From Candidatus Poribacteria bacterium (GTDB lineage: Bacteria; Poribacteria; WGA-4E; WGA-3G): DNA of 62,703 nucleotides. Where the stretch lies: the NCBI GenBank assembly GCA_028821605.1, contig JAPPFM010000036.1, positions 1-62,703 of the forward strand, in the 5' to 3' direction. Of the stretch, positions 22,029 to 46,042 are shown in pieces. Made by a program: the position numbers and the translations under genes. The notes below the pieces were generated by a model that saw nothing but the letters and a program-made list of their open reading frames with translations, did not search any database and was not told where the DNA came from. Each line of letters starts with the position of its first letter. The first letter of the stretch is position 1.

Positions 22029-23774
22029 ATGGCGAATTATCAAGAATTGGCAAATCTGGTTTGGAATGTAGCGGATGATGTTCTTAGAGGACTTTTCAAA
22101 CCGCACGAATACGGCGATATCACCCTCCCATTTCTGGTGCTGCGCCGATTAGACTGCATCTTAGACGGGGACGGACGAAAAGAGAAAGCCATTGATACCT
22201 ACAACGAGTTTAAGGACAAAGTGTCCGAAGAAATGCTACCGCCAATTATCCTGAGAGCGGTAAACACCAGTTTCTACAACACCTCCCAGTACGACCTATC
22301 CCGACTGACAGAAGATCCGACCAATATCCGCCTCAATTTTGAGAATTACCTCAACGGATTCAGTCAAGACGTGCGCGACATCATTGAAAACTTCAATCTC
22401 GACGGTTTTATTGAGCGACTGGACAGAAACAACCGTCTGTTCATCTTCTGCGATAAATTTACCGAAATCGATTTACATCCCGATAAGGTGGATAACCATA
22501 CGATGGGACAGGTCTTTGAGGAGCTGCTCCGTCGATTCTCGGAGATGTCCAACGAAACCAGCGGGGAACACTACACGCCACGGGATGTGGTGCGGTTATT
22601 GGTCTCGCTATTGTTTGCGGAACACCGTGAGGACCTACGCGGGCAGGGAGTTATCCGCAGTATCTTTGATCCGTGTTGTGGGACAGGCGGTATGTTGACC
22701 GTTGGAAAGGAGTACTTCCGCGAGCAGATTAATCCGAATGCTGACATTCGGTTGTTGGGTCAGGAACTGAACGCACAGACCTACGCAATCTGCAAGTCGG
22801 ATATGCTCATCATTGGCGAGGACCCCGACAATATTCGACACGGTTCCAGTCTCTCCGAGGATCAATTTCAAGGGCAACGTTTTGATTATATGATAACGAA
22901 TCCACCCTTCGGCGTGAGTTGGAAGTCCGATGAAGCGGCAGTGAAAGCGGACGCGCAAACCGTCAACGGCAGATTCTCAGCAGGTACGCCTCGCGCCTCC
23001 GATGGGGCGTTGCTGTTCCTGCAACACATGCTCTCCAAGATGGAGGACCGTGGGAGTCGAGTCGGAATTGTCTTTAACGGGTCGCCGCTCTTTACGGGGG
23101 ATGCCGGTAGCGGTGAGAGTGAAATCCGACGCTGGATCATTGAAAACGACTGGTTGGAGTGTATTATTGCGCTCCCTGAAAAGTTGTTCTTCAACACCAG
23201 TATTGCCACCTATATCTGGATCTTAACGAACCGAAAATCGGCGGCACGACAGGGGAAGGTTCAACTGATCAACGCTGTTGACTTCCGCGACGAGATGAAA
23301 AGGAACCTCGGAGATAAGAACGTTTTTGTTTCCGATAGCCATATCCGTCAACTGGTAGAATTGTACACCAACTTTGAAGAGACCGAACACTGCAAAATCT
23401 ATCCAAATGAGTTTTTCGGCTACACGAAGGTGACGGTTGAAAGACCGCTCATCGAAAAGCAGGAAATTTTGGGTAAGGAGATGGAGGTTGTCGTTCGGGA
23501 CAAGCAGCGGAAGCCAAAACCGGATCCCAAGCTGCGAGACTTTGAGCGCGTTCCCCTCACAGCGGATATTGATGATTATTACCAACAAGAAGTGAAACCG
23601 CACGTGCCGGACAGTTGGATAGACAGAAAGAAGGATAAGGTGGGTTACGAGATTAACTTCAATCGGTATTTCTATCAGTACACGCCACTGCGTTCGCTGG
23701 AAGAGATTGCAGAGGAAATACTGGCTCTTGAGCGGAAAAGTGAAGGCTTGTTGAATGAGGTGTTATCGATTTGA
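22029..23774 (+). CDS. hsdM: Type I restriction-modification methyltransferase subunit HsdM
   Basis: A 581-residue N6-adenine methyltransferase subunit. The N-terminal helical region (NLVWNVADDVLRGLFKPHEY) is typical of HsdM. Residues 178-190 read SGEHYTPRDVVRL; the S-adenosylmethionine motif is DPCCGTGG (214-221) and the catalytic motif IV is NPPF (291-294). With HsdS it methylates the recognition sequence and, with HsdR, forms the restriction complex. AAGGAAA precedes the start. hsdS does not follow directly: about 3 kb of other genes is interposed, which is unusual because hsdM and hsdS are normally adjacent. Confidence 0.97.
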   Translation: MANYQELANLVWNVADDVLRGLFKPHEYGDITLPFLVLRRLDCILDGDGRKEKAIDTYNEFKDKVSEEMLPPIILRAVNTSFYNTSQYDLSRLTEDPTNIRLNFENYLNGFSQDVRDIIENFNLDGFIERLDRNNRLFIFCDKFTEIDLHPDKVDNHTMGQVFEELLRRFSEMSNETSGEHYTPRDVVRLLVSLLFAEHREDLRGQGVIRSIFDPCCGTGGMLTVGKEYFREQINPNADIRLLGQELNAQTYAICKSDMLIIGEDPDNIRHGSSLSEDQFQGQRFDYMITNPPFGVSWKSDEAAVKADAQTVNGRFSAGTPRASDGALLFLQHMLSKMEDRGSRVGIVFNGSPLFTGDAGSGESEIRRWIIENDWLECIIALPEKLFFNTSIATYIWILTNRKSAARQGKVQLINAVDFRDEMKRNLGDKNVFVSDSHIRQLVELYTNFEETEHCKIYPNEFFGYTKVTVERPLIEKQEILGKEMEVVVRDKQRKPKPDPKLRDFERVPLTADIDDYYQQEVKPHVPDSWIDRKKDKVGYEINFNRYFYQYTPLRSLEEIAEEILALERKSEGLLNEVLSI

Positions 23775-24865: not shown

Positions 24866-25372
24866 ATGACTGTGGAGGAGATGTCTAAGGAATACCCGAA
24901 CGAATGGTTGTTTATTATGGGGGGAAATAATATGATAAAATCAGCAGCAGAAACGCTTTTTGAAAAAGGCTTTGAGCAAGGATTTGAAGTAGGATTTGAG
25001 GAAGGCAGAATAATAGGCAAAACAAAAGTTATTCAGCAAGACATTACAAAAAATATTGCAAAAATTGTTGAACAGGGCATTGCAATAAATATTGAGCAAG
25101 ACATTGAAAAAGACATTGAAAAAGTTATTGAGCAAGCCAAGGTAAAAGTTATTCAGATGGGCATTGCAAAAGACATTGAAAAAGTTATTGAGCAAGCCAA
25201 AGCAATAGGTGTTGAGCGAGACATTGCAGAAAACACTGATAAAACTATTGAACAGGGCATTTTAATGGGTATTGAGCAGGGCATTGAAAAAATTATTGAG
25301 CAAGTCAAAGTCGAGGTATATCGTGCTTGGCACACAGATTGGGAAAATGAAGACAGGCAGCAGATGCCATAA
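24866..25372 (+). CDS. Repeat-rich helical protein of unknown function
   Basis: A 168-residue protein. The first 16 residues (MTVEEMSKEYPNEWLFI) look like a small domain I have seen heading other short proteins of this type of organism, but this is from memory and uncertain. Residues about 32-155 consist of degenerate units such as IEKDIEKVIEQAK, GIAKDIEKVIEQAK and GILMGIEQGIEK, predicted as a long charged helix or coiled coil. At DNA level a 33-base stretch is exactly repeated at 25108-25140 and 25168-25200. A TGGTATAAT extended -10 sits at 24810-24818. The internal tail resembles in style the tandem-repeat tails of Rpn proteins. No enzymatic motif is seen. Confidence 0.65.
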   Translation: MTVEEMSKEYPNEWLFIMGGNNMIKSAAETLFEKGFEQGFEVGFEEGRIIGKTKVIQQDITKNIAKIVEQGIAINIEQDIEKDIEKVIEQAKVKVIQMGIAKDIEKVIEQAKAIGVERDIAENTDKTIEQGILMGIEQGIEKIIEQVKVEVYRAWHTDWENEDRQQMP

Positions 25373-25429: not shown

Positions 25430-25759
25430 ATGAAAAAGCCAAAACTTGTCGTTGAACACCTCATGAACGACCGATTACTCGTCCAATCTGTTGCGACCTC
25501 AAAGTCTTTTGATTGGCTCAAATGGTTAGAGACAGAAGAGCTTGTCGAATTTTTTGCTGAGTTGTTCAAGCTGCTAACGCGAATCTCAGAAGGCAAAAAA
25601 GACGCTGAAACACTTTCAATTTTTCTCTCCGAATGGCGTGAAACCGCATTGATTAATTCAGAACCAGATGTCTTAGCAGATATTGTTGAAGCACAACAAG
25701 AGTTAGCCGCAGACGGTGGCAAAGAGTGGGCACAGATCAAAAAGGAAATTGGACTGTGA
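25430..25759 (+). CDS. Probable antitoxin of a RelE-type toxin-antitoxin pair
   Basis: A 109-residue acidic protein. The C-terminus (IVEAQQELAADGGKEWAQIKKEIGL) is of a kind seen at the ends of type II antitoxins, and a RelE-like toxin frame begins within its last bases. The N-terminal part is helical; no clear DNA-binding fold is visible, so identification rests mainly on position. Its frame is intact whereas the toxin carries a stop. It may still bind related toxins encoded elsewhere. Confidence 0.55.
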   Translation: MKKPKLVVEHLMNDRLLVQSVATSKSFDWLKWLETEELVEFFAELFKLLTRISEGKKDAETLSIFLSEWRETALINSEPDVLADIVEAQQELAADGGKEWAQIKKEIGL

Positions 25760-26036
25760 ATTCCATACCATATCCACTTGCACGCTTCCAAAAAAGGTGG
25801 AAAATTTTATCAGAAGGTTGGAACAAGAAACACAAGTGCGAATTAGTACTGCTTTTGAGTACATCCTTGGATCTCCCTTTCGGCATGAAAATCCTACAAC
25901 CATCAAACCATTACATGGACAGAAGAAAGGGCTTTATCGTTATCGGATAGGGTATCTCCGTTTCATTTAACAAGTCGACAGAGAAGAACGAATAATCCAT
26001 ATTGTACAAATTGACAATCGTGGTGATATTTATTAA
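25749..26036 (+). pseudogene. RelE/ParE-like toxin gene broken by an in-frame stop
   Basis: Reading from TTG 25749, which overlaps the antitoxin end by 11 bases, gives LPKKVENFIRRLEQETQVR, IKPLHGQKKGLYRYRIGYLRFI, then TAA at 25968-25970, then in the same frame QVDREERIIHIVQIDNRGDIY and a normal stop at 26034. RelE/HigB-type toxins have a continuous R-I-G-x-x-R-x-I-Y-x-V...H-R-G-D-V-Y ending, so the TAA replaces the expected Tyr codon (one base change). The lost 22 residues include the conserved C-terminal strand, so the product should be inactive. Confidence 0.75.
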
Positions 26037-26799: not shown

Positions 26800-28140
26800 A
26801 TGAAACGTTACCCTGAATATAAAGAGAGTGGTGTGGAGTGGATTGGGGGGATGCCGAAACATTGGGAAGTCTTGAAAGTGAAACGTGTTGGTTTGAGTAA
26901 TCCTTCCAAGAATAATCCTAAGACGACTTGTCTTAAAGATCAGCAGGTGGTTTTCCTTCCAATGGAGCGGGTTCATACTGATGGGACGATTGACCAAGAA
27001 TTAAGGTTGCCTTACTCTCAACTGAAAAATGGCTACACCTATTTTGAGGAAGGTGATATTCTCATAGCAAAAGTAACTCCTTGTTTTGAAAATGGAAAGA
27101 TTGTCCACATAAAGAATTTGGCAACTTCAGTTGGGTTTGGCTCGACTGAGTTTATTGTCATTCGTCCTGATCTGCAAACGGTATTTCCACCTTTTTTGTA
27201 TTATATTTTCCGTAGTAAACCACTTCGTAGCATTGGTAAACATTTTATGACCAGTGCGGTTGGTCTGAAACGAGTCCCAACTGAGTTTGTTGAAAATTTT
27301 CGGGTTCCAATACCGGCTTACCAAGAACAAACCCAAATCGCCAACTTTCTTGACCGGAAGACCGGACAGATTGACGAGCTCATCCGCATTAAAGAACGAC
27401 AGATAGAACTGCTGCAGGAACAACGCACGGTGCTGATAAATCAGGCAGTGACAAAAGGACTTGACCCGAATGTGGACATGAAACTGTCGGGTATGGAGTG
27501 GATTGGGGAGATACCAGCGCATTGGGAAGTCAATAGACTCAAATACGTTGCGAAGATACTACCAAGTAATGTTGATAAACATATCTATCCAGATGAGATC
27601 CAGGTCAGATTATGCAATTATACCGATGTTTATTACAACGATTATATTACAGTTGATACCGTTTTGAAAAAGGGTAGTTGTAAGGAAAGTGAGTTTGTGC
27701 AATTTGTTTTGAGGAAAGGCGATGTTATAATTACCAAAGACTCTGAAACCCCAGATGATATTGGCGTTCCAACTTATGTCAAAGACGATTTAAACGATGT
27801 TGTGTGTGGGTATCATTTAACATTGATTAGACCACTTGCTTGTCGTGGCGAGTTCATTTTTAGGTTTATTCAATCCGATAGGACGAGAAGATATTTTGCG
27901 GTGAATTCAAATGGAATTACCAGATATGGCTTGGGAAAAGCATCAATTGAAAATCTGCTCTTACCCATACCCCCTGATTCCGAACAACGCCAAATCGCCA
28001 ATTTCCTTGACGACAAAACCGAGCAGATTGACGAACTGATAGCCGCGGAGCAGCGAAAGATCGAACTCCTCAAAGAATACCGTCAATCCCTCATCTCCGA
28101 AGCGGTGACCGGCAAGATAGATGTACGAAATGAGGTTTAG
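26800..28140 (+). CDS. hsdS: Type I restriction-modification specificity subunit HsdS
   Basis: A 446-residue DNA-recognition subunit with two target-recognition domains separated by conserved helical spacers. Each half starts with a related motif (SGVEWIGGMPKHWEVLKVKR and LSGMEWIGEIPAHWEVNRLK) and ends with a coiled-coil spacer (IANFLDRKTGQIDELIRIKE; IANFLDDKTEQIDELIAAEQ). The internal duplication is the normal HsdS design and lets each domain bind half of a bipartite site. The sequence recognised cannot be read. The gene is more than 3 kb downstream of hsdM and 1.3 kb upstream of hsdR. The start ATG has only a weak GAGGTG in front. Confidence 0.95.
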   Translation: MKRYPEYKESGVEWIGGMPKHWEVLKVKRVGLSNPSKNNPKTTCLKDQQVVFLPMERVHTDGTIDQELRLPYSQLKNGYTYFEEGDILIAKVTPCFENGKIVHIKNLATSVGFGSTEFIVIRPDLQTVFPPFLYYIFRSKPLRSIGKHFMTSAVGLKRVPTEFVENFRVPIPAYQEQTQIANFLDRKTGQIDELIRIKERQIELLQEQRTVLINQAVTKGLDPNVDMKLSGMEWIGEIPAHWEVNRLKYVAKILPSNVDKHIYPDEIQVRLCNYTDVYYNDYITVDTVLKKGSCKESEFVQFVLRKGDVIITKDSETPDDIGVPTYVKDDLNDVVCGYHLTLIRPLACRGEFIFRFIQSDRTRRYFAVNSNGITRYGLGKASIENLLLPIPPDSEQRQIANFLDDKTEQIDELIAAEQRKIELLKEYRQSLISEAVTGKIDVRNEV

Positions 28141-28185: not shown

Positions 28186-28215
28186 TTGATTTTTTCGGTG
28201 TTTCTATGCTATACT
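28186..28215 (+). promoter_or_regulatory. Candidate promoter for the Rpn-family gene
   Basis: TTGATT (28186-28191), 18-base spacer and TATACT (28210-28215), about 40 bases before the gene. Confidence 0.4.
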
Positions 28216-28256: not shown

Positions 28257-29375
28257 ATGCCCGAAACCCAAGAGACTCAGATAGAACACTTCCCTGACCG
28301 TAGCCTCAGACGCTTGCTTCAAGACAGGGAATATGTGCGGGGGTTAGTCCAAATTATCGCACCGGACATCGAGGTGTTTCTCGACTTCAGCCGGATTACA
28401 TACGAAAAAAGAAGTTTTATCTCTAAAGCCCTGCAAGAACGCGAGTCAGATGTCCTACTGAGTGTCCCGTTTCAAGAAGGCACGGATGCCACAGATACCG
28501 ATGCGCTGCTCATCTATATCCTCATTGAACATCAATCTACAGTGGATAAAACGATGGGGTTTCGGTTATTGTCTTACATGATGCAAATCTGGGAGTCGCA
28601 ACGGCGGGAATGGGAAACGGCGAAGATTCCAGAAAATGAAAGATTTTTACAGCCGATCCTGCCAATTCTGCTTTATACGGGCGACCGTCCGTGGACAGTG
28701 CCGGTGTCCCTGACGACGCTTATGGATGTTCCTGAAATTTTGGAGCGTTTCGTCCCGAGTTTTGACACGCTGTTTTTAGGGGTCAAGGAGACTGAGGCGG
28801 AGGCATTGACGCGATCCGGACATCCGTTGGGCTGGTTGTTGCATGTGCTTCAAAAGGAGCATTCGGACAAGACAGAGATAAGCGAAGCACTAACAGATGC
28901 CGTGTCGCATTTAGCGTCAGTAGATGAGGATTTCGCACCGCAAATTGCGGAGGCACTCCGGTATTTTGTGCAGTTGATATTCCATCGGCGTTCTCTTGAC
29001 GAGCGCGATGCGTTAGTAGATATTATTAGACAACATATTCAAGACGATAAGGAGTTAGAGACAATGGCACAGACAACGGCTGAGTTTCTCATAGAACAAG
29101 GCAAAGCGGAAGGTAAAGTGGAAGGCAAAGCGGAAGGTAAAGCAGAAGGCATAGAACAAGGCAAAGCAGAAGGTAAAGCGGAAGGTAAAGTGGAAGGTAA
29201 ACAGGACGCGGTCCTCAAACTCCTGCAGCTCCGATTTCAGAACGTGCCTGAAGTGCTTTCACGTGAAATCAGCAATATCCACAATTTACTGCTCCTCGAC
29301 GCGCTTTTAGAGCAAGCGATGACCGCGCAAAGTTTAGATGAAATAGATACGCATTTCTCCTTAAACTCTCCCTGA
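28257..29375 (+). CDS. Rpn-family PD-(D/E)XK nuclease with variable-repeat tail
   Basis: A 372-residue protein of the recombination-promoting nuclease / transposase_31 family. The nuclease core shows Asp65 in RESDVLLSVPF, and Glu91-His-Gln93 in YILIEHQSTVD, the family's D...E-x-Q form of the PD-(D/E)XK site. After residue about 275 comes a low-complexity run of K-A-E-G and K-V-E-G units, then a helical C-terminal domain (AVLKLLQLRFQNVPEVLSRE). In E. coli, Rpn genes also make a short C-terminal product from an internal start that restrains the nuclease and acts in phage defence. A good internal start is present here (29049-29066). It sits between hsdS and hsdR, so a defence role is likely. Confidence 0.88.
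   Translation: MPETQETQIEHFPDRSLRRLLQDREYVRGLVQIIAPDIEVFLDFSRITYEKRSFISKALQERESDVLLSVPFQEGTDATDTDALLIYILIEHQSTVDKTMGFRLLSYMMQIWESQRREWETAKIPENERFLQPILPILLYTGDRPWTVPVSLTTLMDVPEILERFVPSFDTLFLGVKETEAEALTRSGHPLGWLLHVLQKEHSDKTEISEALTDAVSHLASVDEDFAPQIAEALRYFVQLIFHRRSLDERDALVDIIRQHIQDDKELETMAQTTAEFLIEQGKAEGKVEGKAEGKAEGIEQGKAEGKAEGKVEGKQDAVLKLLQLRFQNVPEVLSREISNIHNLLLLDALLEQAMTAQSLDEIDTHFSLNSP
29049..29066 (+). promoter_or_regulatory. Internal ribosome binding site and ATG within the Rpn gene
   Basis: AAGGAG (29049-29054) lies nine bases before an in-frame ATG (29064-29066, codon 270, reading MAQTTAEFLIEQG). Translation from here would yield a 103-residue C-terminal protein comprising the repeat tail and last domain, like the short RpnS antitoxins. 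The match to the ribosome binding consensus is direct; its use is inference. Confidence 0.55.
29091..29200 (+). repeat. 12-bp coding tandem repeat (KAEG units) with 60-bp higher-order copy
   Basis: Units of the form GGCAAAGCGGAA / GGTAAAGTGGAA are repeated in frame about eight times. ATAGAACAAGGCAAAGC occurs at both 29091 and 29151, showing a 60-bp block duplication. Whole-unit gain or loss would keep the frame and change tail length. Confidence 0.85.
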
Positions 29376-29447: not shown

Positions 29448-32441
29448 GTGCCGACGTATACAGAACAAAATTTTGAGGACCACATTGAAGCACATCTGAA
29501 TCGGTCGGGCTACCAGTCATTACAATCTTCCCATTACAATAAATCCCGTTGTCTGATACCCAATGAGACGCTGAAGTTTATTCAGGACACGCAACCGGAA
29601 GTGTATCAGAGACTGGAACGCCAGTACGACGCGGATACACCAGATAAATTCCTTGATCGTGTCAGCAGAGAGATTAAAAATCGCGGGGTATTGGACGTGC
29701 TTCGGAAAGGGATTAGGGATAGAGGTTGTCATTTTAAGCTGACCTACTTCCTACCATCAAGTGGCATGAACCCCGACCACCAGCAACTTTACGCGCAGAA
29801 TCGATTCTCCCTCATTCGACAGTTAAAGTATTCAGAGAAGAACGAGAAATCCCTTGATATGACCTTGTTCCTCAATGGGTTGCCGTTGGTGACAATGGAA
29901 CTGAAAAATAGCCTCACCGGTCAGACGGTAGCAGATGCGGAGAAACAGTATCGGACGGATCGCGATCGAAGAGAACCGTTGTTCCGATTCAAGCGGTGTC
30001 TGGTGCACTTTGCGGTGGGTAACGAGAAGGTTTCCATGACGACCCACTTGCAAGCGGGTGGGACACGATTCTTTCCGTTTAACAAAGACATCGAAAACCC
30101 TGTGAATCCGAACGGACACAAGACCGCTTATCTGTGGGAGGACATCCTACAGCCCGATAACCTGATTGAACTCATCAACAACTTCATTCATGAGCAGGAG
30201 ACCACGGAGAAGGTCTACGACCCTAACAGTCGGATGGTGACAGATAAGAAGTCCCGCGTGCTTGTTTTCCCGCGATACCATCAGTTGGACGTGATTCGCC
30301 AGTTAAAAGAGGCTGTTATCGCAGAGAAGGTCAGAAATGACTACCTCATCCAACACACCACCGGTAGCGGCAAATCCAACTCCATCGCATGGTTGGCGCA
30401 CCTACTGACGCATCTGTATAGTTCTTTGGACACTACAAATCGGATCTTTGATTCCATCATTGTCGTGACAGATCGACGCGTGCTTGACAGGCAGCTGCAG
30501 AACACAATCAGGCAAGTCGCACAAGTTGAAGGCGTTGTGCATGCTGCTGATAAGAACTCTGCCCAACTTAGGGAGTTCCTTGAATTCGGCAAAGACATCA
30601 TTATCTCTACAATTCAGAAGTTCAGCGTGATAGCGGAGGAAATTGGTAAGCTCAAAAGCAAAACCTTCGCTGTGATTATCGACGAAGCGCACTCCTCGCA
30701 GACCGGTGAATCTGCAAAAAACCTCAGAGTTTCGCTTTCAAAAGGGATTGAGAAAGACATAGAAGATGATGACCCCGACGAGGTAGAATCAGATATAGAC
30801 GCTAAAATCCTTGAGGTGATCGAACAGCGAAGAATGCGGGATCATATCTCTTATTTCGGTTTCAGCGGTACACCAAAGAACAAGACTTTAGAATTGTTTG
30901 GGCGGAAGAACGAAGAAGGAATATTTGTCCCGTTTCATACCTACTCGATGCACCAGAGTATCAGCGAAGGGTTTACGTTGGACGTGCTGCAGAACTACAC
31001 CACCTTTAAAAGATATTTTGAGCTGGTTAAAAGTGTGTCGGAGGATAAAGAGTACGAGAAGGCGCGAACGCTGCGAGCATTGACCAATTACGTTGATCTG
31101 CAACCGCACAGCATTGAGACCAAGACCCGGATTATGTTGGAACACTTCACCGAACACACTGCAAAGACGATTGAAGGGAAAGGACGGGCGATGTTGGTTA
31201 CGCCGTCCCGACTGCACTGCGTTAGATACAAGCAGGAATTCGATAAACAAATGAAGGAGATGGGGCTTCCCTACGGGTGTCTGGTGGCATTCAGCGACAC
31301 GGTGCACGACACTGATAACGGGGTAGATTACACGGAAAACGGGATGAATAAATTGCCACCAAGCACTTCGATTGAGCACAGTTTCAAGGAGCCGCAGTAT
31401 CGGATTCTAATTGTCGCGAGCAAGTTCCAGACGGGTTTTGATGAGCCGCTGCTACAGACAATGTACGTTGATAAGCGGTTGGATGGGCTGCAATGTGTCC
31501 AGACCTTGAGCCGTTTGAATCGCGTCGCCAAGGGTAAGACAGATACGCTGGTACTCGATTTTGTGAACGAACCTGAGCAGATACAAGCAGCGTTTCAGCA
31601 ATACTACCAGACTACGACACTCGCCGAGGAGACCGACCCGAATCGGTTGTATGACCTACAGCGTCAGTTGGAGGCGTTTGATCTCTATGATGAAGGTACC
31701 ATCGATCAATTCTGTCGTATCTTTTATGACCCTGATCAGCCCGCCGAACTTTTACAGGGCATTCTTGATCGCGTTGTTGGGAGATGGTCAGAACTTGAAA
31801 CAGATGATAGAGAAGAATTTCGTTCTACCTTACAGGGTTACATTCGCCTCTACGGATACATCTCACAGTTGATTACCTTTACGGATGTAGCGTTGGAAAA
31901 GTTGTATATCTTCAGTCACAGCCTCAACAAGAAGCTGCCGAAACGGGAGCACCCCGACCTACAAGATGTCCTTGATTCTGTGGACTTGGATTCGTTTCGC
32001 GTGCAGAGGATACATGAGGAATTACAACTCTCCCTTGAAGAGGAAGATAGCGAGGTCGAAGGATTTGGGGGTGATGTCGCTCCCCGCAGGGACCCCGAAC
32101 AGGATTTCCTCTCCAATATCATTGACACGCTGAACAGTACCCATCACACGGATTTTACTGCAGAAGATAAGGTTGACCTTGCGAGCATTCACCAAAAAAT
32201 GCACGAAAACGAGGAACTTCGACAGGTAATCGCCGGAGATAATACGGAGACCAACAAAGAATATAAGTTTAATCAGGTGTTTGATGAGATTTTATTGAGT
32301 TTCGTCAATAGTAGGTTGGATCTCTTCACGAAATTATCACAACCAGAGATCAATAAGGATCTCAAGCGCCAACTCTATCAAGCCTATCTTGAGCAATCGT
32401 CCTCTTCTGTAGAAGCGACCTCCCCGTCGCGATCTTCCTAA
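29448..32441 (+). CDS. hsdR: Type I restriction enzyme motor/nuclease subunit HsdR
   Basis: A 997-residue protein that translocates and cuts unmodified DNA. The N-terminal PD-(D/E)XK nuclease has Asp137 (LDMTLFLNG) and the E-x-K pair Glu151/Lys153 (VTMELKN), followed by the conserved QYRTDR. The helicase has Walker A TGSGKS (305-310), DEAH (412-415) and a downstream SKFQTGFDEP and QTLSRLNR region. The C-terminal helical domain binds HsdM/HsdS. GTG at 29448 is chosen because GAGGTG lies seven bases upstream and the next ATG is far inside the nuclease domain. It ends the hsd locus; no frameshift is seen. Confidence 0.96.
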   Translation: MPTYTEQNFEDHIEAHLNRSGYQSLQSSHYNKSRCLIPNETLKFIQDTQPEVYQRLERQYDADTPDKFLDRVSREIKNRGVLDVLRKGIRDRGCHFKLTYFLPSSGMNPDHQQLYAQNRFSLIRQLKYSEKNEKSLDMTLFLNGLPLVTMELKNSLTGQTVADAEKQYRTDRDRREPLFRFKRCLVHFAVGNEKVSMTTHLQAGGTRFFPFNKDIENPVNPNGHKTAYLWEDILQPDNLIELINNFIHEQETTEKVYDPNSRMVTDKKSRVLVFPRYHQLDVIRQLKEAVIAEKVRNDYLIQHTTGSGKSNSIAWLAHLLTHLYSSLDTTNRIFDSIIVVTDRRVLDRQLQNTIRQVAQVEGVVHAADKNSAQLREFLEFGKDIIISTIQKFSVIAEEIGKLKSKTFAVIIDEAHSSQTGESAKNLRVSLSKGIEKDIEDDDPDEVESDIDAKILEVIEQRRMRDHISYFGFSGTPKNKTLELFGRKNEEGIFVPFHTYSMHQSISEGFTLDVLQNYTTFKRYFELVKSVSEDKEYEKARTLRALTNYVDLQPHSIETKTRIMLEHFTEHTAKTIEGKGRAMLVTPSRLHCVRYKQEFDKQMKEMGLPYGCLVAFSDTVHDTDNGVDYTENGMNKLPPSTSIEHSFKEPQYRILIVASKFQTGFDEPLLQTMYVDKRLDGLQCVQTLSRLNRVAKGKTDTLVLDFVNEPEQIQAAFQQYYQTTTLAEETDPNRLYDLQRQLEAFDLYDEGTIDQFCRIFYDPDQPAELLQGILDRVVGRWSELETDDREEFRSTLQGYIRLYGYISQLITFTDVALEKLYIFSHSLNKKLPKREHPDLQDVLDSVDLDSFRVQRIHEELQLSLEEEDSEVEGFGGDVAPRRDPEQDFLSNIIDTLNSTHHTDFTAEDKVDLASIHQKMHENEELRQVIAGDNTETNKEYKFNQVFDEILLSFVNSRLDLFTKLSQPEINKDLKRQLYQAYLEQSSSSVEATSPSRSS

Positions 32442-45589: not shown

Positions 45590-46042
45590 GTGAAGAAACA
45601 GAGATCTCCGCTCTTATCGACGCGGCAAGATTGGATAAGTGTGGAGATTTTCACGCTGTTTGTCGTAACGGTTATTTATGCTATTATCGTGTGGCGATAT
45701 CAGAGTGGTAAAGCACAAGAGACGATGGAAACGGTGTTTGTCACGATGCGACATGTTTCCGCCGCGATCTTGCCTATGATTGTTGGGATTGTAGGCACTT
45801 TTGAGATAGTAGGTGAAATCATGATTAGATTGACAAGTCTGATAGAAAAAACGAGAGCCGAAGGGAAGGCAGAAGGCAAAGCCGAAGGTATTGCTGAAGG
45901 GAAGGCAGAAGGCAGAGCGGAAACGATTGCCGAATTCCGTCAGTATTTGGCATGGGAGAAGCGGCGAGATGAGGCGGCTGCTAACAACCAACCTTTTAAC
46001 GAACCACCACCGCCCAAGCCCGAAGGTTATCCTGAAGAGTAG
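45590..46042 (+). CDS. Two-helix membrane protein with Rpn-type AEG repeat tail
   Basis: A 150-residue protein. GTG 45590 follows AAAGGAG by nine bases. Two hydrophobic helices are at about 18-36 and 58-78; then a run of A-E-G units (RAEGKAEGKAEGIAEGKAEG, about 88-110) and a charged, Pro-rich C-terminus (NEPPPPKPEGYPEE). The repeat is similar to that in the Rpn nuclease at 28257, but there is no nuclease domain. Function is unknown; the tail could associate with Rpn-like tails or simply extend into the cytoplasm. It has its own promoter and stands before a toxin-antitoxin remnant region. Confidence 0.7.
   Translation: MKKQRSPLLSTRQDWISVEIFTLFVVTVIYAIIVWRYQSGKAQETMETVFVTMRHVSAAILPMIVGIVGTFEIVGEIMIRLTSLIEKTRAEGKAEGKAEGIAEGKAEGRAETIAEFRQYLAWEKRRDEAAANNQPFNEPPPPKPEGYPEE

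Follow-up and report, generated by a model that had tools for sequence, protein, structure and literature searches.

Does a nuclease gene that sits within a restriction locus also encode the protein that holds its product in check? The question is raised by an rpn-like gene of a sponge-associated bacterium, located at positions 28257–29375 (forward strand) of the stretch of 62,703 nucleotides analysed here (the window). Its 372-amino-acid product, RpnL, consists of an N-terminal PD-(D/E)XK nuclease domain (Transposase_31) followed by a repeat tail, and just ahead of the repeats a first-pass annotation had noticed an internal ribosome-binding site (RBS) and ATG from which the tail could be produced as a short protein, RpnS. 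A toxin–antitoxin design of this kind was described by Zhong et al. (2023) for E. coli RpnA–E and RpnP2 and in C. difficile; there, RpnS is made separately and blocks RpnL in vivo and in vitro, for which the same repeat number is required (PMC10327210), in agreement with what the annotation had stated of the short E. coli products. For the window gene, the comparison with many relatives presented below makes it very probable that the tail is additionally produced as a small protein of its own, which, by analogy with E. coli, likely holds the nuclease in check. As a whole, the reading of the gene as a Poribacterial rpnLS unit, with RpnS holding the RpnL nuclease off, is considered probable.

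The nuclease gene and its restriction locus

The 372-amino-acid protein is matched by PF04754 (Transposase_31, YhgA-like, Rpn) with an E-value of 6.4e-30 and 104.7 bits against a cut-off of 21, and the 19 named loci that match it all belong to Candidatus or uncultured Poribacteria MAGs (19/19), which places the window in a Poribacterial genome. The narrower NCBIfam model TIGR01784, which represents one subfamily, scores 40.4 bits, under its cut-off of 52.1; this counts against the rpnLS reading, and family membership is claimed at the PF04754/Rpn-like level only. No PADLOC model matched protein P0001. In a profile alignment with E. coli Rpn (hhalign; probability 99, E-value 6e-20), which defines the nuclease domain (residues 14–221; 28296–28919, forward strand), residues D14, D65, E91, Q93 and R103 correspond to RpnA D11, D63, E82, Q84 and R94, and the region around M270 aligns with that around RpnA M244. 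Each of these catalytic residues is intact in the window protein and invariant in 61 of 61 homologues (among the matches listed), and a passage of an earlier report on RpnA states that mutants of the corresponding residues lose some or all phenotypes (PMC5350276).

As the annotation had pointed out, the gene lies inside a restriction locus; this is of type I, with hsdM (methyltransferase; 22029–23774), hsdS (specificity subunit; 26800–28140) and hsdR (restriction subunit; 29448–32441) around it, all on the forward strand. The gene lies between hsdS and hsdR, and its placement within a type I locus counts in favour of the rpnLS reading. hsd genes or hsd remnants are found near 21 of 24 close orthologous loci among the matches listed (L001, L008–L027 and L037–L039, the neighbourhoods of the last three being taken from their longer versions L109, L105 and L107), and no hsd genes lie within the stretch examined at L017, L019 and L020. 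At L097, L100, L101, L110 and L112, hsdM, hsdS or hsdR is in fragments and rpn is still open, which indicates that the unit can outlast the restriction system. In a passage of a review on E. coli type I restriction defence islands, rpn is named among the toxin–antitoxin systems that accompany type I families (PMC12707154). Association with type I systems is thus common to both, whereas, compared with the islands in that passage, the Poribacterial gene lies between hsdS and hsdR and outlasts damaged hsd genes at several loci.

Between hsdM and hsdS, an ORF of 168 amino acids (24866–25372), about 80% conserved in relatives, has an IEQ/IEK-rich repeat tail resembling Rpn tails. Two small adjoining ORFs of 109 and 84 amino acids (25430–25970) have no Pfam match; the shorter has the look of what we presume to be a RelE/ParE-type toxin, and the longer has two further copies in the genome. 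Elsewhere in the window, an ORF at 45839–45943 (L006) contains AEGK-type 4-residue repeats and has otherwise no similarity to Rpn.

The internal start and its conservation

The full-length gene is preceded by a sigma-70-like promoter (TTGATT-18-TATACT; 28186–28215, forward strand), which in relatives also precedes orphan rpnS genes. The coordinates proposed for the internal site were confirmed: a Shine–Dalgarno (SD) sequence, TAAGGAG (29048–29054, of which AAGGAG occupies 29049–29054), is separated by a 9-nt spacer (29055–29063) from an in-frame ATG (29064–29066; codon 270) that opens an internal ORF, rpnS, of 103 amino acids (29064–29375), all on the forward strand. The 4-residue (12-nt) repeats AEGK/VEGK/IEQGK (29103–29204, forward strand), present in varying number in the relatives (steps of four), begin about 12 residues past the internal Met, within the range of 8–20 residues seen in described RpnL/RpnS pairs (PMC10327210). 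The C-terminal part (residues 309–362; 29181–29342, forward strand) is DUF4351-like: the model (PF14261) scores 16 bits in the window protein and does not reach the Pfam cut-off of 25, which counts against the rpnLS reading, and it matches 25 of 26 RpnS sequences at E ≤ 0.1 (best 3.7e-5). A candidate internal promoter upstream of the internal start (TTGACG-17-GATATT; 28996–29024, forward strand) is a weak consensus match only: 3 promoter-like sites were counted in the stretch, where 1.5 would be expected. For RpnS, structure prediction gave a model of only moderate confidence (mean pLDDT 69), with helices at residues 6–17, 34–57, 63–70 and 75–87; it has no significant match in the PDB, RpnAS (7TH0, a three-helix bundle) included, and a profile of the window tail has no sequence match to 7TH0, both of which also count against the rpnLS reading. 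E. coli RpnAS as query does find 7TH0. A full-length structure prediction with 16 close sequences (mean pLDDT 48) was too poor for use.

The annotation had suggested that the site and its ATG be checked in homologues, and both proved to be kept. Matches were found in 38 of 38 genomes of the genus searched, and from 96 loci among the matches listed, 61 full-length ORFs (38.5–100% identity; query covered from residue ≤60 to residue ≥330 in one frame) were aligned, identical proteins being counted once; 32 standalone and 13 partial ORFs were kept apart, and at least 12 weaker full-length matches in the genus stand outside this count. An SD and an ATG are present at the internal site in 61/61 of these full-length homologues (among the matches listed): in 60, the ATG falls in the M270 column and its SD measures 4 nt or more; in L067 the same arrangement occurs one codon later. 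The same SD and ATG are found in 12 of the 13 partial ORFs (among the matches listed), with the SD lying more than 12 nt upstream of the ATG in four of the 12; the 13th is the N-terminal piece of a frameshifted gene whose C-terminal piece carries both. In other Poribacterial genera (64 ORFs from the 61 genomes, out of 84 of the phylum, that have PF04754), SD and ATG are found in 63 of 64, a count which, unlike that for the genus, takes the best ATG per tail and so favours the result: 62 come from this choice, L190 has the site ahead of a frameshift within its repeats, and the remaining one, L202, is truncated at a contig end. One of the other loci, L193 (G060:C1:550800-556300), holds four full-length rpn genes in direct tandem and one more partial copy.

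The motif is retained by codon choice. The Glu codon at position −4 is GAG in all 61 genes, compared with 841 of 2050 Glu codons (41%) elsewhere in the same genes. An SD of at least 5 nt is present at the internal site in 58/61 and at only 5 of the 388 other in-frame ATGs of these genes, and the mean anti-SD pairing energy is −9.57 at the former against −2.66 at the latter. When synonymous codons were shuffled (200 sets), the mean energy was −5.40 (sd 0.37; best −6.43), and an SD of at least 5 nt arose in a mean of 23 and a maximum of 34 of the 61 genes. The 61 homologues share ancestry and are therefore not independent trials; yet different codons and residues keep the SD, which is retained despite changes in the encoded residues (KEL, SEV, MEV, EEG, QEI) and a shifting spacing. 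The 16S rRNA of a genus mate contains the anti-SD on which these energies are based (...ggatcacctccttt), and no 16S rRNA was found in the window's own assembly. Applied to E. coli, the same procedure locates the internal starts of RpnA, RpnB, RpnC and RpnE, that of RpnA being M244, as reported (PMC10327210). At the main start, SD pairing is weak (mean −2.6, against −8.5 at the internal site), and in each of the 21 close orthologues compared (21/21) the internal site pairs more strongly; RpnS is therefore predicted to outnumber RpnL among the products of one mRNA.

Free-standing copies of the tail

The window gene itself has no adjoining free-standing copy of rpnS. At no fewer than nine loci of the genus (L008, L011, L013, L016, L017, L022, L023, L025 and L027), a second copy of the tail lies directly downstream of the full-length gene, with a gap of 17–123 nt from stop to ATG. 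In L011, L013, L016, L022, L023, L025 and L027, the match to the query starts at residue 264–265, that is, at the RBS, and in L008 and L017 further upstream; the SD is weakened in L017, L022 and L023. In addition, at least eight orphan copies occur without a nuclease (L082–L086 and L088–L090), and in these the promoter of the parent gene (TTGATT..TATACT) has been fused immediately ahead of the RBS, in three types of junction (L082/L083/L086/L088/L090; L084; L085/L089). Seven of the eight adjoin hsdS or hsdR, and L090 adjoins a band-7 gene, which in the window comes after hsdR. The genome to which the window belongs also contains an orphan of another subtype (L005), in which a TATATAA box immediately precedes the RBS and ATG and which scores above the DUF4351 cut-off. 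The duplicated and orphan tails of the relatives, mostly cut at the RBS, show the site acting as the start of a separate gene.

Median dN/dS is 0.11 for tandem (n=8), 0.15 for orphan (n=7) and 0.15 for internal sequences (n=18); the calculation used 18 of 21 close internal and seven of eight orphan sequences, the core motif having missed the rest, and left out L027, L077, L078 and L079. The standalone copies thus look to be under purifying selection, though part of the divergence may predate their separation. In G031 (89% complete), which carries orphans L085 and L089, no PF04754 gene was found, so RpnS there is without a visible partner, and this counts against the rpnLS reading. No relatives were found in viral contigs with either of two queries.

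The repeats vary in a regular manner. Where the core motif occupies its usual place, the spacing between the internal Met and the tail core equals 21+4n (21–69 in internal and 21–49 in standalone tails); the exceptions are L067, where the Met is shifted, L033, where the pattern is matched elsewhere, and some distant homologues in which the motif was not found. Tandem copies differ in repeat number from the neighbouring full-length gene in nine of nine pairs, which counts against the rpnLS reading, since under the E. coli rule such copies would not be expected to act as its cognate antitoxin. Active avoidance of the neighbour's repeat number was considered and rejected as not significant, a mismatch in 9/9 pairs arising in 26% of shuffles. 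In L017 (G001:C21), the full-length gene bears the tail of another paralogue type: its tail is 91% identical in DNA to L052 and its front 91% identical to the window gene, while the standalone copy downstream retains the original tail type. To judge from these identities, the L017 gene has exchanged its tail at a point within or close to the repeats.

Proposed function of the short protein and rival readings

According to the rpnLS reading, one mRNA would be transcribed from the promoter at 28186–28215. The first ATG, with its weak SD, would be used rarely and would yield RpnL (372 amino acids), a presumed DNA nuclease; initiation at the strong internal site would be frequent and would yield RpnS (103 amino acids, from the ATG at 29064). 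RpnS, which shares its repeat helix and tail with RpnL, would bind it through a matching count of 4-residue repeats and keep the nuclease off, until a trigger such as phage infection frees RpnL to cut DNA. A toxin–antitoxin role is suggested by the 4-residue repeats, by the homology to E. coli RpnA and by catalytic residues that are all intact, and it is from the E. coli work that we infer the separate synthesis of RpnS in the source organism, the toxicity of RpnL, its inhibition by RpnS and a role in defence. The first-pass observation is factually correct, and its interpretation holds to the extent that sequence can show. Its argument from an unrelated lineage adds little, because Rpn occurs in 34 bacterial phyla and RpnS had already been reported from C. 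difficile (PMC10327210).

Other explanations of the internal site and of the free tails can be weighed against this reading. If the SD-like motif merely slowed ribosomes or reflected a protein constraint, with no second protein being made, its presence would accord with the commonness of Lys-Glu and Met in helices and with the occurrence of SD-like words inside genes; codon choice, however, holds the motif while the residues vary, and in the promoter-linked orphans the same ATG follows a promoter and an RBS at normal spacing, and we regard this explanation as extremely improbable. Alternatively, the internal start could be real and RpnS a structural subunit that forms the active nuclease with RpnL, as Cas11d does with Cas10d. 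In both cases, a small C-terminal protein would come from an internal start of a defence gene; Cas11d is a partner subunit, not an inhibitor, and the protein is unrelated to Rpn. This idea draws on the repeat helix common to RpnL and RpnS and on Cas10d/Cas11d as a cited precedent for internal starts (PMC10327210), but it is quite improbable when set against E. coli, where RpnAS prevents RpnAL from cleaving and RpnL is more toxic on its own (PMC10327210), and orphan RpnS without a nuclease suits an inhibitor better than a subunit.

It is also conceivable, if somewhat unlikely, that the internal start alone matters and that the tandem and orphan tails are functionless debris of recombination at the repeats. 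Repeats favour unequal exchange, frameshifts (L027, L190), gene fragments and numerous changes of the repeats are seen among the relatives, the RBS is weakened in three of the tandem copies, and the orphan dN/dS includes time spent inside full-length genes; yet dN/dS is low in both tandem and orphan copies, their reading frames are uninterrupted, and both RBS and promoter persist across three junction types. A further proposal, which we hold to be unlikely, would make RpnS an immunity gene in its own right: the nuclease would be repeatedly deleted while promoter, RBS and RpnS are kept in the hsdS–hsdR slot, mismatched copies would protect against other Rpn alleles (of resident paralogues or incoming), and the 12-nt repeats would be the place of exchange for length and tail type.

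Taken as an rpnLS unit, the Poribacterial gene has in common with its E. coli and C. difficile counterparts the nuclease domain and catalytic residues, an RBS and ATG ahead of a 4-residue repeat tail, downstream second RpnS copies and a defence neighbourhood (PMC10327210); the E. coli copy ypaA likewise starts at its KERLM RBS. It differs in its longer, DUF4351-like tail (103 amino acids against 49 in E. coli RpnAS), in its position between hsdS and hsdR, in the orphans that retain the parental promoter and in the differing repeat numbers of neighbouring copies. The RpnL/RpnS kind has already been described as widespread (PMC10327210), and no Poribacterial case is named in the titles and abstract openings listed for Rpn and internal-start toxin–antitoxins. 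The added value lies in evolutionary evidence and natural variants: repeated losses of the nuclease that leave RpnS in the hsdS–hsdR slot, the repeat-number mismatch of neighbouring copies and one tail swap all go beyond the main text of that study. That Poribacteria retain the internal start by codon choice across many genera, and that the tail has repeatedly been cut free at the RBS, argues strongly, on comparative grounds, for the internal start being a general device of Rpn genes, and the natural repeat-length variants, the tail swap and the nuclease-free orphans provide material with which the repeat-number specificity rule of E. coli may be tested.
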